Source: Mycobacterium botniense (GTDB taxonomy: Bacteria; Actinomycetota; Actinomycetes; Mycobacteriales; Mycobacteriaceae). Taken from it: a stretch of DNA of 64,000 nt. The translations under genes were made by a program, and so were the position numbers. Shown here in pieces: positions 13,914 through 20,194 of this stretch. The notes beneath the pieces were generated by a model. It saw nothing but the letters and a program-made list of their open reading frames with translations. It did not search any database and had not been told where the DNA came from. Position 1 is the first letter of the stretch; every line of letters starts with the position of its first letter. The stretch lies in assembly GCF_010723305.1 (NCBI RefSeq), contig NZ_BLKW01000002.1, forward strand, positions 1,798,001 to 1,862,000, in the 5' to 3' direction.

Positions 13914-15497
13914 CTAGCAGCCGGCGGCTTGGCCGTCCCGGCGCGGGTCACTGGCGGCGAAATACCCATCGTCGAGCCGCCAGATCGCCTGGCAGCTACC
14001 GAAGTCGTTGTAGTCATCCACAACCACCAGCTGGTGGCCGCGGCGGTGCAGCTCGTCCAGCGTTGACTGCGGTAAACCGGGCTCACAGCAGAGCTGCATA
14101 CCCTGCAGCCACCGGAACCTGGGCCCGTCGCAAGCCGTCTGCGGGTTCTGGCCGTAGTCGGCGATGCGCACCACCATCTGCACATGGCCCTGGGGCTGCA
14201 TCGTGCCGCCCATCACGCCGAAGCTCATTACCGGCGCGCCGTCCCGGGTCAGGAAACCGGGGATGATCGTGTGGTAAGGACGCTTGTTCGGCCCGACTTG
14301 GTTCGGATGCCCGCGCGTCACGGCGAAACTCGAGCCACGGTTCTGCAGGGCGATGCCGGTCCCGGGCACCACGACGCCCGAGCCGAATCCCATGTAGTTC
14401 GACTGGATCATCGACACCATCATCCCGGCGGCGTCGGCGGCGGCGAGATACACGGTGCCCCCGCCCGGCTGTCCGGCAGATGCCGGCGTGGCCCGGTTGA
14501 GGTCGATGAGCGTCGCCCGGTGCCGCAGATACTCGCTGTCGAGCAGTTGCTGTGGTGCCAGCGGCATATGACCGATATCGGCGACGTAGGTGTGCGCGTC
14601 GGCGAAGGCGAGCTTCAGCGCTTCGATCTGCAGATGCAGACTGTCAGCAGAATCGACGGGGAACGAGCCGATGTCGAAGTGCTCAAGAATGCCTAGCGCT
14701 ATCAACGCGACGATGCCCTGGCCGTTGGGCGGAATCTCGTGGACGGTGTAGCCGCGGTAGGCTGCGCTGACCGTACCGACCCAGTCGGGGCGATGCGTGG
14801 CGAGGTCACTGGCGCGAAGGGCGGCGCCGTGGGCGGCGGCGTGCGCCTCGAGTTCTGCCGCGAGTTCACCGCGATAGAACGCCTCGCCGTTGGTCATGGC
14901 GATGGTCTCGAGCGTAGCCGCATGGTCGGGGAACCTGACCAGTTCACCGGGTTTGGGTGGCCGTCCGCGCGGCAGGAACACCTCGGCGAACCCGGGCTGG
15001 GATTCACATATCGGTGCCTGCGCCGCCCACTGCGCCGCCACTGTCGGTGAGACCAGAAATCCGTTGCGGGCGTAGGTGATTGCGGGCTCGAAAACACGGG
15101 TGAACGGTAGCTTTCCGAACTTCGCGTGTAGTTCCACCCATGCCGACACCGCACCGGGCACGGTGACTGAATCCCAGCCCAGGGTGGGCACTGCCCGCCC
15201 GCCGAAGTACTCCGGCGTCCACGCGGCCGGAGAGCGGCCTGACGCGTTCAGCCCATGCAGTCGCTGACCATCCCAGACGATGGCGAAGGCGTCCGAGCCG
15301 ATGCCGTTGGACACCGGTTCGACCACGGTGAGTGTGATAGCGGCGGCGAGAGCCGCGTCGACCGCGCTGCCGCCCTCACTGAGCATCCGAAGGCCCGCTT
15401 GTGCGGCAAGCGGCTGCGAGGTGCACACAACGTTTTGCGCCAGAACCGGTTTCCGCGGCCACGCATAGGGCAACTCCCAAGAGAAAGGCACAGTCAC
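13914..15497 (-). CDS. ggtA: Gamma-glutamyltransferase family hydrolase
   Basis: 527 residues from GTG with AAGGAG upstream. N-terminal LAQNVVCTSQPLAAQAGLRM and SAVDAALAAAITLTVVEP are typical of the Ntn-type gamma-glutamyltransferases. The processing threonine is in GGGTVYLAAAD, after which MIQSNYMGFGSG continues the small-subunit core. It corresponds to Rv0773c. No clear signal peptide is visible, so it may be cytoplasmic and act on gamma-glutamyl or acylated amide substrates. It lies 18 bases after the fadD7-like gene on the same strand. Confidence 0.87.
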   Translation of the reverse strand: MTVPFSWELPYAWPRKPVLAQNVVCTSQPLAAQAGLRMLSEGGSAVDAALAAAITLTVVEPVSNGIGSDAFAIVWDGQRLHGLNASGRSPAAWTPEYFGGRAVPTLGWDSVTVPGAVSAWVELHAKFGKLPFTRVFEPAITYARNGFLVSPTVAAQWAAQAPICESQPGFAEVFLPRGRPPKPGELVRFPDHAATLETIAMTNGEAFYRGELAAELEAHAAAHGAALRASDLATHRPDWVGTVSAAYRGYTVHEIPPNGQGIVALIALGILEHFDIGSFPVDSADSLHLQIEALKLAFADAHTYVADIGHMPLAPQQLLDSEYLRHRATLIDLNRATPASAGQPGGGTVYLAAADAAGMMVSMIQSNYMGFGSGVVVPGTGIALQNRGSSFAVTRGHPNQVGPNKRPYHTIIPGFLTRDGAPVMSFGVMGGTMQPQGHVQMVVRIADYGQNPQTACDGPRFRWLQGMQLCCEPGLPQSTLDELHRRGHQLVVVDDYNDFGSCQAIWRLDDGYFAASDPRRDGQAAGC

Positions 15498-15515
15498 CGC
15501 CGGACTCCTTGGCGT

Positions 15516-17036
15516 TCAGGCTCGACTGGCCCCGAATTTTTCGGCGGCCGCACGGCGATCGACGGAACCTTTTGCGGTGTGGGGCAACTCGTCCGTCACC
15601 TGGATGGTGGCAGGGACCTCGAAAGCAGCCAGCCGCTCCCGGCAGAACGAGGCGAGTTCGGTGGTGTCCGGGTGATCCGAGGCTCCAGCGACCACGACTG
15701 CGGCGACCGTCTCCCCGTAGATCGGGTCCGGGACGCCGAACACCGCTGCCTCCACCACATTTGGGTGACTAGTCAGAACCACCTCGACCCGTTCGGGCGA
15801 GACCTTCTCCCCGGCCCGGTTGATGAGCTCCTTGATACGCCCGCGCAGTGTCAGCTCTCCCCCCGCGGACAGTGATCCCAGGTCGCCGGTGTGCAGCCAC
15901 CCGTCCGTGAATGTCCGCGCCGTTGCGTCGGGATCTCCCAGGTAGCCACGCGCCACCGTGCGGCCGCGCAGCCAGATCTCGCCCACCGCATCGGGCGGGC
16001 AGGGTCGGCCGTCATCCCCGACGATCCGGATCTGTGCTCCGGTGGAGCAACCAACGAAACCCGCCGCCGGGATCTGGTCGTCGGTTGTGCTCGCCACCTG
16101 GTGGGTGGCCTCGGTCATGCCATAGGCGCTCATCACCGGTGCACCGAATTCGGTCCGCAGTGCCTGCGCCGTTTGGGTGCTGAGCGCCGCGCTGCAGCTG
16201 CGAATGAACCGCAGCCCGCCGGAGTGCTCGGCCGCGGCACGTTTCAGGAGAATCTGGTGAATCGTCGGCACTGCCGTGAACCAGGTCGCGTGTGCGGCAC
16301 GGATATCGTCCCAAAAAGTGTGTGCGGAAAACCGTCCCCCGGCGGGTAACAGCACAGTCCCTCCGGAAGCCAGGGTGGACAGCAGTGCCGCGACCAGCCC
16401 ATGACCGTGAAACAGCGGCATCACCGCGACCGTCGCATCCTGCGGGCCTAACCGATAGGTGTCGATCACTCCACGTACCGCGGACGCGATGTTGTCGCAG
16501 GTCCACGGCACCATCTTCGGTGAACCCGTCGTGCCTCCGGTGAACATGATCACAGCGTCGTCGGACCGCAGCCCGTCGGGCGCCGCGCTGACCGGGTAAG
16601 GCGGGGCGGCGGCGTCGAGGTCGATGCGGAGACCGCCGCGGCTCACCGGAACCGAGACCGGCCAGCATGGGAATGCGGTTTCGCCGGTTTCGCCGGACTG
16701 GTCGATCAAGGCCACTCGCGCGCCGGCCGCCGCGATCCTGGCGTTCTGCTCGGCGAGTGGCAGTGCGGGGTCCAGGGGAACCGCGACAAGCCCTGCCCGG
16801 GATGCCGCCAAGAACCCGAGGACGAAAGCAGCGCTATTGGGTGCGCGCAGCGCGACCCGGTCACCCGGCTGCAGGCCGCGCCGGGCCAGCTGCCCGGCCA
16901 GCTCGTCGACCAGCGTGATCAGGTCGCGATAGGTGACCGGGACGCGGTTGGCGGTGACGATGAGTGCCGGTGTTTCCGGGTGGCGTCTCGCGGCGGCCTC
17001 GACCAGAGCGGCGATTTGCGGGGCGGCGGCGGTCAC
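15516..17036 (-). CDS. fadD7: AMP-forming acyl-CoA ligase, FadD7 / oxalyl-CoA synthetase-like
   Basis: 506 residues from the GTG at 17036 (MTAAAPQIAALVEAAARRHP), 10 bases after AAGGAG; an in-frame upstream ATG at 17072 is possible. The adenylation P-loop MFTGGTTGSPKMVP lies near residue 160, YGMTEATHQ near 290 and LHTGDLG near 375. The closest functional guess is the oxalate-CoA ligase branch because it faces oxcA, as fadD7 and oxcA do in M. tuberculosis (Rv0119/Rv0118c, from memory). Together they would activate oxalate and decarboxylate oxalyl-CoA to formyl-CoA. Substrate assignment is inference from context. Confidence 0.8.
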   Translation of the reverse strand: MTAAAPQIAALVEAAARRHPETPALIVTANRVPVTYRDLITLVDELAGQLARRGLQPGDRVALRAPNSAAFVLGFLAASRAGLVAVPLDPALPLAEQNARIAAAGARVALIDQSGETGETAFPCWPVSVPVSRGGLRIDLDAAAPPYPVSAAPDGLRSDDAVIMFTGGTTGSPKMVPWTCDNIASAVRGVIDTYRLGPQDATVAVMPLFHGHGLVAALLSTLASGGTVLLPAGGRFSAHTFWDDIRAAHATWFTAVPTIHQILLKRAAAEHSGGLRFIRSCSAALSTQTAQALRTEFGAPVMSAYGMTEATHQVASTTDDQIPAAGFVGCSTGAQIRIVGDDGRPCPPDAVGEIWLRGRTVARGYLGDPDATARTFTDGWLHTGDLGSLSAGGELTLRGRIKELINRAGEKVSPERVEVVLTSHPNVVEAAVFGVPDPIYGETVAAVVVAGASDHPDTTELASFCRERLAAFEVPATIQVTDELPHTAKGSVDRRAAAEKFGASRA

Positions 17037-17199
17037 CTCGATCACACTCCTTCTCCAGACGCACGCGGGCACGCGAGGGCAGCGCCCTCACCTGTACGAT
17101 GCCCGCACACCTCATGAGCTGTCCAACCACTGACGTATTGGCGCTGGTTGGCAGGATCGCGGTTGGACTCCGATGCCAAACCGACAAGAGTTAAGTCAG

Positions 17200-17400
17200 T
17201 GTCAGGGTGAGATGCCGCATGTTGCGGTGGTTGGATCCTGATCACCTGGTGTCTGGCTCGTAGAGTGTCTGCCGCCTTCGGGCTGGCGTGCATGGGTTTT
17301 GTCGGCATCAGGTGTGAAGGACCGGCCGGCGTGACTTGATAGGAGCGTGGCATCCGCCCCGACTGAGATGTGTCCGCCGACCGGCCCAACCGTCACCTCA
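17200..17400 (+). ncRNA. Candidate IS110 bridge RNA region
   Basis: IS110-group elements encode a bridge RNA in the noncoding left end upstream of the transposase. This stretch is noncoding and rich in short stems, for example CCGCA-TGT-TGCGG near 17214 and a GTGAC/GTCAC pair at 17330-17334 and 17391-17395. CTTGATAGGAG at 17335-17345 nearly repeats the right end of the element (CTTGACATAGGAG at 18469-18481), as a donor-binding guide should. TGGCATC at 17348-17354 is complementary to GATGCCA at 17172-17178 near the presumed left end. Boundaries are approximate. Confidence 0.4.
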
Positions 17401-17420
17401 CAGTGAAGGAGGCAACCACC

Positions 17421-18473
17421 ATGGTTGTTGTTGGAGCCGATGTACACAAGCGCACGCACACGTTCGTCGCGGTCGATGAGGCCGGGCGCAAGCTGGCCGA
17501 GAAGGTTGTCAAGGCCACTACTGCAGGTCATGCCGAGGCGGTGATGTGGGCCCGAGAAAGCTTCGGGCCAGAGGTGGTGTGGGCGATCGAGGATTGCCGG
17601 CATCTGTCGGCCCGGTTAGAGCGTGATCTGATGGGCTTTGGTCAGTCGGTGGTGCGGGTGCCGCCGAAGTTGATGGCCCAAACGCGGGCTAGCGCACGCA
17701 CCCGGGGCAAGTCTGATCCAATCGACGCCTTAGCAGTCGCGCGCGGTTTTCTGCGTGAACCCGATCTGCCGGTCGCCTCCCATGATGAGGTGTCGCGGGA
17801 GTTGAAGTTGTTGGTGGATCGCCGGGAAGTCCTTGTGGCGCAACGCACTGCCACCATCAACCGGCTGTTGTGGCGGGTGCACGAGCTCGACCCCGACCAC
17901 GCGCCCAAAGCCCGTTCGCTGGATCTGGCCAAGCACCGCCGGATTCTCGGCGATTGGCTTGCCACGGTGCCTGGCCTGGTCGCTGAGTTGGCGCGCGACG
18001 AGCTAGCCGACATCATCCGACTCACCGAGACCATCAACGCCTTGACCAAGCGCATCGGACAGCGAGTTCGCCACGTCGCCCCGGTGCTGCTTGCTCTTCC
18101 AGGCTGCGGGGAGCTGACCGCGGCCAAACTCGTCGGAGAAACCGCCGGGGTGACCCGGTTCAAAAGCGCGGCCGCCTTCGCGCGCCATGCCGGGGTGGCG
18201 CCTGTCCCGGTGTGGTCGGGAAACACTGCCGGTCGCGTGCGCATGACCCGCTCGGGCAACCGCCAACTCAACGCCGCCCTGCATCGCATCGCCGTAACCC
18301 AGATCCGTCTCAACGGCCTTGGGCAGGTTTACTACCGGAAGCGGCTAGCCGACAGCGATTCCACCACCGAAGCCCTGCGCTGCCTCAAACGCCGCTTGGC
18401 CCGCGTCGTCTTCGGCCACCTCCAGACCGACGAACAGAACCGTCAACAGCCTTGCCAACCGGCAGCGGCTTGA
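17421..18473 (+). CDS. IS110-family transposase (recombinase)
   Basis: 350 residues from the ATG at 17421, preceded by GAAGGAGG. The N-terminal RuvC-like domain shows the DEDD set: Asp7 (GADVH), Glu57 (AIEDCR), Asp99 and Asp102 (GKSDPIDA). The C-terminal Transposase_20 domain has PGCGELTAAKLVGE near 227-240 and the expected catalytic serine at 278 (TRSGNRQLNAAL). No internal stop is seen, so it is probably functional. It is transcribed in the same direction as oxcA, whose ATG is only 14 bases after the stop, so oxcA may now be expressed from the element. Confidence 0.93.
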   Translation: MVVVGADVHKRTHTFVAVDEAGRKLAEKVVKATTAGHAEAVMWARESFGPEVVWAIEDCRHLSARLERDLMGFGQSVVRVPPKLMAQTRASARTRGKSDPIDALAVARGFLREPDLPVASHDEVSRELKLLVDRREVLVAQRTATINRLLWRVHELDPDHAPKARSLDLAKHRRILGDWLATVPGLVAELARDELADIIRLTETINALTKRIGQRVRHVAPVLLALPGCGELTAAKLVGETAGVTRFKSAAAFARHAGVAPVPVWSGNTAGRVRMTRSGNRQLNAALHRIAVTQIRLNGLGQVYYRKRLADSDSTTEALRCLKRRLARVVFGHLQTDEQNRQQPCQPAAA

Positions 18474-18487
18474 CATAGGAGAAACCC

Positions 18488-20194
18488 ATGAACATCCAAT
18501 CCGCCCCTGAGGGACTGACCGACGGTTTCCATCTGGTAGTGGACGCCCTGAAGCTCAACGGGATCGACACCATCTACGGTCTGGTCGGTATTCCCATCAC
18601 CGACCTTGCCCGAGTCGCACAGGCATCGGGTATCCGCTTCATCGGATTTCGTCACGAAACCTCAGCCGGGAACGCCGCGGCCGCCGCCGGGTTTCTCACC
18701 CGAAAGCCCGGCATCTGTTTGACAGTGTCGGCCCCGGGTTTCCTCAACGGGCTGGTCGCGCTGGCGAACGCAACAACGAACTGTTTTCCGATGATCCAGA
18801 TCTCAGGATCCAGCGAGCGCGCACTCGTGGATCTCCAGCGCGGCGCCTATGAGGAACTCGACCAACTGAGTGCGGCGCGGCCGTTCGCAAAAGCAGCGTA
18901 CCGAATCTCCCGTGCGGAAGACATCGGACTCGGCGTCGCGCGCGCCATCCGCGCCGCGGTGTCGGGCCGGCCGGGTGGGGTGTACCTCGATATCCCCGGT
19001 GCCGTGCTCGCTCAGGCCCTCGACGCGACCGCCGCGGCCAGCACCCTGTGGCGGGTCGTCGACCCTGCTCCCCGGCAGCTCCCCGCACCCGAGGCGGTTG
19101 AGCGGGCGCTGGACTTACTGGCCACCGCGCGCCGGCCGCTGATTGTGCTCGGCAAAGGCGCCGCCTATGCCCAGGCGGACACCGTGATCCGGCGTTTCGT
19201 GGAGACTACCCGAATCCCCTTCTTGCCGATGTCGATGGCGAAGGGCCTCGTGCCGGACACACACCCGCAGTCGGTTGCGGCTGCCCGGTCGCTGGCGCTG
19301 AGCCGCGCGGACGTGGTCATGTTGATCGGCGCGCGATTGAACTGGCTGTTAGGCAATGGTGAATCACCACCGTGGTCTGCCGACGTGAAATTCGTCCAGG
19401 TGGACGTTCAAACGTGCGAATTCGACAGCAACCGGCCGATCGCCGCGCCGCTGGCCGGCGATATCGGCTCGGTGCTGTCGGTGCTCCTGGACCGCATCAT
19501 CACCCAGCCGCTCGCCGTGCCGACGGCGTGGACTGATGAACTCGCCGAGCGCAAAGCTCGCAACGATACCGCAATGCGTGAACGCCTCGCGGAGGATGCG
19601 CATCCGATGCGGTTTTACAGCGCGCTGCGGGTGATTCGCGAGGTGCTGGCGCAGCACCCCGAGGTCTATGTGGTCAACGAGGGCGCTAACGCCCTAGATA
19701 TCGCCCGCAACGTCATCGATATGCAGATGCCGCGGCATCGCCTAGACAGCGGAACCTGGGGTGTCATGGGTATCGGCATGGGCTACGCCATCGCGGCGGC
19801 GATCGAGACCGGACAGCCGGTGATTGCGATTGAAGGTGACAGCGCGTTCGGCTTCAGCGGGATGGAATTCGAAACGATATGTCGCTATCGGCTCCCGATT
19901 ACCGTTGTCGTCCTCAACAACGGCGGCGTCTACCGCGGCGACGAGGTCGCGGCCAGCGGAACGGATCCGGCACCCACCGTACTGAGCGCGCATGCGCATC
20001 ACGAAAAGATCGCAGAGGCGTTTGGCGGCAAGGGGTATCATGTCATCACTCCCGTTCAATTGGAGTCTGCTCTCGTCGACGCGTTAGCATCGGGGACGCC
20101 GGCGATTATCGATTGTGTACTCGATCCCGCCGCCGGCGTGGAAAGCGGACATCTGACGGCGCTGAACCCGAAAAGCGCGGCTGCCGGCGGCTAA
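18488..20194 (+). CDS. oxcA: Thiamine-diphosphate-dependent oxalyl-CoA decarboxylase
   Basis: 568 residues, full length for the family. The N-terminal ThDP-PYR domain has the catalytic Glu region FRHETSAGNAAAAAG near residues 55-70. The C-terminal domain has the ThDP motif beginning GDSAFGFSG near 450 and ending VVVLNNGG. This matches OxcA (Rv0118c-like), which converts oxalyl-CoA to formyl-CoA and CO2. The facing fadD7 would supply oxalyl-CoA. The AGGAG 6 bases before the ATG lies at the junction with the IS110 element, so the native promoter is probably displaced. Confidence 0.88.
   Translation: MNIQSAPEGLTDGFHLVVDALKLNGIDTIYGLVGIPITDLARVAQASGIRFIGFRHETSAGNAAAAAGFLTRKPGICLTVSAPGFLNGLVALANATTNCFPMIQISGSSERALVDLQRGAYEELDQLSAARPFAKAAYRISRAEDIGLGVARAIRAAVSGRPGGVYLDIPGAVLAQALDATAAASTLWRVVDPAPRQLPAPEAVERALDLLATARRPLIVLGKGAAYAQADTVIRRFVETTRIPFLPMSMAKGLVPDTHPQSVAAARSLALSRADVVMLIGARLNWLLGNGESPPWSADVKFVQVDVQTCEFDSNRPIAAPLAGDIGSVLSVLLDRIITQPLAVPTAWTDELAERKARNDTAMRERLAEDAHPMRFYSALRVIREVLAQHPEVYVVNEGANALDIARNVIDMQMPRHRLDSGTWGVMGIGMGYAIAAAIETGQPVIAIEGDSAFGFSGMEFETICRYRLPITVVVLNNGGVYRGDEVAASGTDPAPTVLSAHAHHEKIAEAFGGKGYHVITPVQLESALVDALASGTPAIIDCVLDPAAGVESGHLTALNPKSAAAGG

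Follow-up and report, generated by a model that had tools for sequence, protein, structure and literature searches.

The stretch of DNA considered here (the window; 64,000 nucleotides of Mycobacterium botniense, positions 1,798,001 to 1,862,000 of contig NZ_BLKW01000002.1) holds a complete insertion element of the IS110 group between fadD7 (15516-17072, minus strand; NF004511) and oxcA (18488-20194, plus strand; NF006721), the gene calls bearing out the location given in a preliminary description of the locus. The ATG of oxcA starts two bases past the right end of the element, and 225 bp of noncoding left end (17196-17420) lie upstream of its transposase. There is a strong probability that the element is autonomous and that the guides of its predicted bridge RNA, the left one for a promoter -10 box and the right one for a start codon, direct insertion two bases upstream of start codons at sites with the geometry of leaderless genes. 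This targeting is well supported by the sequence, namely by ends placed to about one base, the fold, the matches between guides and targets, and the geometry of the targets; we further infer RNA production, cleavage and exchange, promoter capture, and Shine-Dalgarno function. The element and its gene are as follows.

17196..18485, plus strand: complete IS110-group element of 1290 bp, beginning with T and ending with C (four genomic copies and empty-site comparisons; each end within about one base)
17421..18473, plus strand: IS110 transposase (recombinase) of 350 amino acids with D7, E57, D99, D102, and S266 (family profiles and structure-based alignments)

The transposase matches Pfam PF01548 and PF02371 as well as NCBIfam NF033542 (196.6 bits, cut-off 140), and phmmer aligns it with the solved structures of ISCro4 (9t56) and IS621 (8wt6). 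The catalytic residues reported for IS621, D11, E60, D102, D105, and S241 (PMC11208158), carry over these alignments to D7, E57, D99, D102, and S266, a placement that assumes two extra residues in the deposited IS621 chain for S266 and relies on ISCro4 only for D7. By alignment, the protein has the DEDD RuvC-like domain and the Tnp domain with catalytic serine of the IS110 group, as the preliminary description had proposed. Unlike in the IS1111 group, where the RNA lies downstream of the transposase, the RNA region is upstream, and 12 bp separate the stop codon from the right end.

A DNA search of the same genome returned four full copies, including that of the window, and one weak partial match. 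The other three copies, at three further sites, are 99.77-99.92% identical to the window copy (one with a single substitution, one with a one-base deletion, and one with three one-base deletions); the left flanks differ among all four, and CCATG directly follows each. The other copies set the left end at T17196 or C17197 and, together with the empty sites, correct the boundaries first proposed (17170-18490) to 17196-18485. GATGCCA (17172-17178), which had been suggested as the partner of the left end, is consequently host DNA outside the element, an outcome that the preliminary description had itself named as counting against its proposal. The window copy is intact; two of the other three carry frameshifting one-base deletions in the transposase (L003 and L004, with one and three single-base deletions, respectively, possibly assembly errors). 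Four near-identical copies at four sites point to recent movement, and current activity of the window element is plausible.

Empty sites in relatives refine the ends. At oxcA, three relatives align across the junction, one with the same length (L063) and two with a spacer two bases longer (L080 and L085). At a pheA-like gene (L026), nine relatives have a recognisable promoter, with a spacer of 6 in seven (same length) and of 7 in two. Among 30 loci of a dcd-like gene (27 uninterrupted and parsed, two carrying an element, and one unparsed), the 27 have their -10 box 6-7 nt ahead of GTG (6 in 23 and 7 in 4), and the site of L045 agrees with L160 and L162 in letters and length. On plasmid pJCM15296, the junction is gap-free, but single-base gaps lie 13 bp leftward and some 130 bp rightward of it, and its reading frame is therefore no guide to the boundary; at the L014 site, the two closest relatives are each one base longer, which speaks against T...C ends or is unclear. 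The best fit is an element running from T17196 to C18485 without target loss or duplication, T17196 being favoured because of the oxcA (L063), pheA-like, and dcd-like comparisons, and either terminal base could be host. No target-site duplication is seen at the oxcA, pheA-like, dcd-like, and pJCM15296 sites. A boundary with a host T or a host C was considered and is less likely, as the lengths at the dcd-like (L045), oxcA (L063), and pheA-like (L026, seven of nine) sites favour T...C, with L014, L080, and L085 against or unclear.

The noncoding left end holds the predicted RNA and its four guides.

17205..17395, plus strand: predicted bridge RNA region, RNA ends approximate (consensus fold of 38 sequences, covariation, single-sequence z)
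17213..17229, plus strand: 5' stem-loop, formed by helix 1 of the predicted bridge RNA (98.7% of cells paired)
17260..17269, plus strand: left target guide GTAGAGTGTC in the target-binding loop; the T, A, and T of TAnnnT are nearly fixed and the rest varies between elements (permutation, entropy, guide listing)
17270..17288, plus strand: apical hairpin separating the two target guides (consensus-fold helix 5, with 96.3% of cells paired)
17291..17295, plus strand: right target guide CATGG, complementary at 5 of 5 positions to the CCATG that includes the host start codon
17336..17345, plus strand: left donor guide TTGATAGGAG, reading in the same direction as the right end TTGACATAGGAG (ATAGGAG unchanged in all 38 aligned left ends)
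17362..17367, plus strand: right donor guide ACTGAG, matching in reverse complement the CTCAGT of the joined ends (TGAG invariant, A and C in at least 90% of 38 sequences)

An alignment of 38 distinct left ends yields a consensus fold with a 5' stem-loop, a stem carrying both target guides in an internal loop on either side of an apical hairpin, and another stem with the donor guides in its loop, the three-part layout (5' stem-loop plus two stems with internal loops) described for the IS621 bridge RNA (PMC11208160). Paired cells amount to 98.6% against 98.1% in shuffled alignments and at most 53% in slid controls; pairs changed on both sides number 6 against 2.2 in shuffles, and further pair types are not raised (36 against 35.2). 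As related sequences can beat shuffles even without structure, the covariation support for the fold is modest, and the conserved layout carries more weight. The window sequence alone folds with a z of -2.79, 3 of 200 shuffles being equally good. An Rfam search of 15000-20000 (E up to 5) gave nothing for IS110 and two weak matches (Yfr1 and SgrS), both below the gathering score.

In the donor loop, the left-end CTTGATAGGAG (17335-17345) and the right-end CTTGACATAGGAG (18469-18481) are present as described, and their near-identity is not chance, ATAGGAG (17339-17345) being invariant in every aligned left end. The left donor guide of the originally proposed arrangement therefore stands. Its other half, a pairing of GATGCCA with TGGCATC (17348-17354), is rejected: GATGCCA lies outside the element, and TGGCATC occupies the apical hairpin of the donor-loop stem and varies in homologues; ACTGAG is the better right donor guide. 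The donor guides match the element ends in a region nearly invariant over the 38 sequences, the ends varying too little for a covariation test. The view of an intact element with a left-end bridge RNA is well supported by the conserved fold, the target-varying left guide, the start-codon-matching right guide, and the left donor guide. The target loop itself and its targets, a -10-like box and a start codon, were not identified at that time.

The host sequences at the two junctions, and the parts of the element that adjoin them or would form a promoter, are these; group A denotes relatives whose left end has a BLAST match at least 84% identical to the window.

17186..17195, plus strand: left target on the host side, a -10-like AAGAGT that departs from TAnnnT at one base, followed by TAAG; it matches the left guide at 5 of 10, among the poorest of 62, and the relative L063 has AACAGTGGAGCCATG here
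18486..18490, plus strand: right target CCATG, in which the ATG (18488-18490) is the oxcA start (sequence and gene call)
18470..18485, plus strand: right end TTGACATAGGAGAAAC, comprising a -35-like TTGACA, the donor sequence, and a Shine-Dalgarno-like AGGAG (18477-18481); identical in 51 of 57 group-A right ends listed
17203..17208, plus strand: CAGGGT, candidate -10 of a putative promoter formed only at the joined ends (TTGACA, 17 nt, CAGGGT; read from the sequence)

Under the group-A threshold, L123 (79.6%) falls outside, though its right side is group-A-like. Group B relatives (L060, L111-L121, and others) share the scaffold RNA and a similar left end, and their left guide likewise matches the left flank; unlike in group A, it abuts the insertion point (10 of 10 rows), the listed targets are not start codons, and the right end is GGAGCAAT or GGAGCTAT. 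In many of them (L060, L111-L121, L128, and L129) the left flank ends in GACAC, GCAC, or GTGTC, and in several the right flank is GCTCGC-like.

The strongest evidence for RNA-guided targeting comes from comparing guides with the flanks of the same copies. Each left guide was scored against its own left flank in the best of five registers, with the same rule for permuted pairs; the test omitted 11 of 83 distinct insertions (L012, L057, L061, L109, L113, L117, L118, L123, L128, L130, and L131), where the guide was unparsed or the flank too short. L018, which pairs left and right ends 2.7 kb apart, and L051 probably represent a single insertion that enters the 62 group-A rows twice; in the permutation, each unique guide was represented by one row. 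Group A reached a mean of 7.52 of 10 against 5.59 (standard deviation 0.20) for permuted pairs, with 0 of 20000 permutations as high (62 rows, 31 unique guides), and group B a mean of 8.0 against 4.80 (standard deviation 0.90), with 9 of 20000 as high (ten rows, seven guides); single rows range from 3 to 10. Since the permutation retains the shared TAnnnT, the excess match is element-specific. Within the guide, T2, A3, and T7 are kept in all 30 ten-nt group-A guides, and a 9-nt guide from Mycobacterium lepraemurium is without the A of TAnnnT. Mean column entropy over 27 group-A sequences is 0.86 bit in the left guide, 0.64 in the right guide, and 0.16 elsewhere. For the right guide, 53 copies comprise 19 with five Watson-Crick pairs, 28 with four, and 6 with three; with wobble allowed, 31 are fully paired and 22 have four of five. 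None of 20000 permutations on 28 representatives scored as high, and the base that precedes the final G tracks the first right-flank base (14 matches, 7.9 expected, 34 of 20000 as high). The target guides thus covary with the target DNA, as in the IS110 group. That the left guide is instead copied from the flank after insertion, so that the match would be a consequence, might seem to follow from the resemblance of every guide to its own flank; this idea deserves hardly any credence, because a single guide occurs with four different flanks in the M. botniense copies and likewise at four M. interjectum sites.

The targets themselves share a strict geometry. In all 55 group-A copies with the right end GAAAC (two mutated right ends, L013 and L029, are outside this set), a start codon, ATG in 39 and GTG in 16, lies exactly 2 nt past the junction, and every one of these insertions lies in the sense of the start codon. 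The downstream frame stays open for at least 60 codons in 52 of the 55 sites, against 528 of 1100 in the control, and TAnnnT stands 5-9 nt upstream of the start codon in 49 of the 55 rebuilt sites, against 79 of 7380 control codons (1.1%); the spacing in the 49 is 6 nt in 31, 7 in 13, 8 in 4, and 5 in one. Transcription starts about seven bases after a -10 box. In M. tuberculosis, 26% of the genes with a primary start site are reported to be leaderless, and three quarters of start sites share TANNNT (PMC3898074). By its geometry, the target is read as a leaderless promoter.

Two other explanations of this geometry were weighed. The recombinase or the host RNA polymerase could pick promoters (for example, open or bent -10 DNA), with the RNA match as a by-product; a promoter-seeking protein would likewise yield TAnnnT, and 49 of 55 group-A sites are -10-like. 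Such a preference is nevertheless very unlikely to be the cause, given that the remaining guide bases match their own site beyond the shared TAnnnT, that the right guide varies with the right flank, and that group B uses the same scaffold with unrelated guides and targets, with matches as high as 10 of 10 (in one row no more than 4 of 10). It is further opposed by one insertion that lies antisense to an annotated Mu transposase gene of the related plasmid pJCM15296, at a TACCGT-6-GTG mimic, which favours sequence rather than transcription as the cue. The same flanks, and hence this promoter mimic, surround insertions in L197 (an M. intracellulare plasmid) and L006 (M. scrofulaceum). Alternatively, insertion could be broad and selection could spare only copies at harmless positions, where the right end rescues the start codon, in keeping with the open downstream frames and with the AGGAG in the right end. 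Survival alone, however, leaves unexplained both the one exact offset of 55 of 55 copies and the element-specific guide matches, and the chance that it accounts for the pattern is correspondingly slight. At the dcd-like gene start, different elements occur in two genomes (L024 and L045) and another one in L169, which points either to repeated use of the site or to inheritance of an insertion.

Several observations weigh against RNA-guided targeting of leaderless starts with promoter capture. The site in the window, AAGAGTTAAG joined to CCATG, is without a T of TAnnnT and matches its guide at only 5 of 10, which makes it a weak example. Three of the 55 downstream frames close within 60 codons, six of the 55 sites have no TAnnnT at 5-9 nt, and in L013 the ATG lies one base further from the junction. 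The distance from left guide to insertion point in group A, unlike that in group B, varies: among the 62 rows it is one base in 39, two in 18, three in 3, and zero in 2, a variation like that seen naturally in -10-to-start distances. In the 29 oxcA relatives, TAnnnT never stands 5-9 nt ahead of a start-like codon near the start, and 19 of the 29 have an AGGAG/AGGAA-type leader, so that oxcA is not a typical leaderless gene; of seven relatives of the L014 site, five have a GAGGAG-type leader and two look leaderless. Group B, whose insertions are not at start codons, likewise retains AGGAG, and donor pairing alone could therefore explain it. The oxcA relatives, being mostly not leaderless-like, weigh against the targeting scheme and the promoter-mimicking interpretation given below and in favour of targeting without capture. 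The leaderless geometry is, on the sequences compared, a rule for sites and not for every gene family hit.

The mechanism proposed for targeting and capture runs as follows. The left target guide would copy the -10 box of a promoter (TAnnnT and flanking bases), the right target guide would pair with the start codon plus the dinucleotide just ahead of it, and the donor loop would pair with the joined element ends. By homology, the recombinase probably uses the RNA to unite joined ends and target, cleaving by way of its serine, as reported for a bridge-RNA recombinase (PMC11208158). The joined ends would read GGAGAAACTCAGTG, with a CT core, the CTCAGT partner of the right donor guide, and the candidate promoter TTGACA-17-CAGGGT; of the left ends, 63 of 65 in group A and 16 of 18 in group B retain A2 and T6 of CAGGGT. 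Once the element is integrated, the host -10 box, at a distance of 4-6 nt from it, would place the host transcription start within the first bases of the element, and the host promoter could then drive the bridge RNA and transposase, while the right-end AGGAG, 6 nt before the ATG, may keep the displaced host gene translatable. Such a lineage would have promoter-mimicking guides, the left locked to TAnnnT and the right to the start codon over a flexible 6-8 nt spacer, and would capture the host promoter at leaderless starts and leave the gene Shine-Dalgarno-led, thereby gaining near-harmless homes at many leaderless genes; this extension is tentative and falls somewhat short of an even chance. 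Close to an even chance is given to targeting as proposed but with neither promoter capture nor gene rescue, start codons being a common conserved target word and transcription coming only from the joined-end promoter. Joining of the ends would create TTGACA-17-CAGGGT, in which A2 and T6 are conserved, a junction promoter is reported for IS621 (PMC11208160), AGGAG is common to group B, and several target genes have a Shine-Dalgarno leader in relatives, all of which suit this alternative; the orientation of all 55 copies in the start-codon sense, mostly 4-6 nt behind a -10-like box, is what capture would need.

In its general plan, the element resembles the IS110 bridge-RNA recombinases typified by IS621, as described in the accounts of that system, in the DEDD and serine recombinase, the left-end bridge RNA with 5' stem-loop, target loop, and donor loop, the top-strand sense of the left guides and complementarity of the right guides, the CT at the inferred joined ends, the candidate junction promoter, and the absence of a visible target duplication (PMC11208160; PMC11208158). 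It differs from IS621 in that the group-A targets consist of a -10-like box and a start codon, that 60 of 62 group-A rows have the insertion point displaced 1-3 nt downstream from the left-guide register, and that the CT core is not kept in rebuilt group-A targets (with ends uncertain by one base). In these rebuilt targets the core bases are variable if T17196 and C18485 belong to the element, and the T is constant if T17196 is host. The ends as placed imply that the group-A target supplies neither core base, the left junction keeping the donor T and the right junction the donor C; the staggered cuts reported for IS621 might lead one to expect a mixture. Possible causes are cleavage within the core, between its two bases, a bias in repair, or a one-base error in the placement of an end. 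The seekRNA of ISEc21, also of the IS110 group, is similar in its upstream noncoding region, in a bottom-strand match that precedes the top-strand match, and in natural retargeting through guide changes; unlike the window element, ISEc21 is described as targeting a conserved stretch of IS3-family transposase genes and not promoters (PMC11187229). Neither 'mycobacteri' nor 'IS900' occurs in the main text of that report.

The mycobacterial comparison is with IS900 of M. avium subsp. paratuberculosis, which belongs to the IS110 family and, by the title of a 1997 paper of Doran et al., is said to target translation initiation signals. A later account of IS900 describes an insertion sequence that inserts beside start codons, cites Doran et al. 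for the hed gene, and reports the motif CATGNNNNNNTCTCCTT, read here as the gap between Shine-Dalgarno sequence and ATG on the opposite strand (PMC8141618). The group-A elements differ from this in lying in the codon sense (55 of 55) behind a -10-like box (TAnnnT in 49 of 55), with no Shine-Dalgarno sequence in the rebuilt target, and so do not follow the IS900 mode of insertion between Shine-Dalgarno sequence and ATG opposite to the gene. Literature titles and abstract openings, mostly from outside subscription journals and without preprints, gave no description of bridge RNAs aimed at leaderless promoters.

Of the 248 genomes of the genus that were sampled, 92 matched the element at an E of 0.001 or lower, often over part of it only, and a protein search of genome contigs for close relatives found 26 loci, 23 with mycobacterial names. 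Phages gave 4 records with distant transposase relatives only, all below 60% identity, and plasmids gave 39 records with a match, in 2 of which one place covers at least 80% of the element. M. lepraemurium has six copies (L025-L030), five of which share one internal deletion at several start-codon sites, the sixth being matched only over its left part; in L026, the only deleted copy translated, the frame is broken, and the deleted form may have moved in trans. L026 and L029 share the same 20-nt left flank with different right flanks, which may reflect recombination between copies. Two miniature forms were also found, one of 432 bp with most of the bridge RNA region and the right end and no transposase (L200:256-687), and one of 84 bp with the two ends only (L201:301-384).

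Bridge RNAs are known as programmable guides, and the accounts of them describe natural programming and guide change only a little (PMC11208160; PMC11208158; PMC11187229). In the relatives of the M. botniense element, variation in the RNA falls mainly in the short guides, matched to a promoter box and to a start codon, which provides a natural series of guide-target pairs. If the proposed targeting is true, it would link RNA-guided transposition to leaderless promoters, would suggest how such elements spread with little harm, and would raise the question of whether IS110 recombinases need a matched core and a fixed distance from guide to cut.

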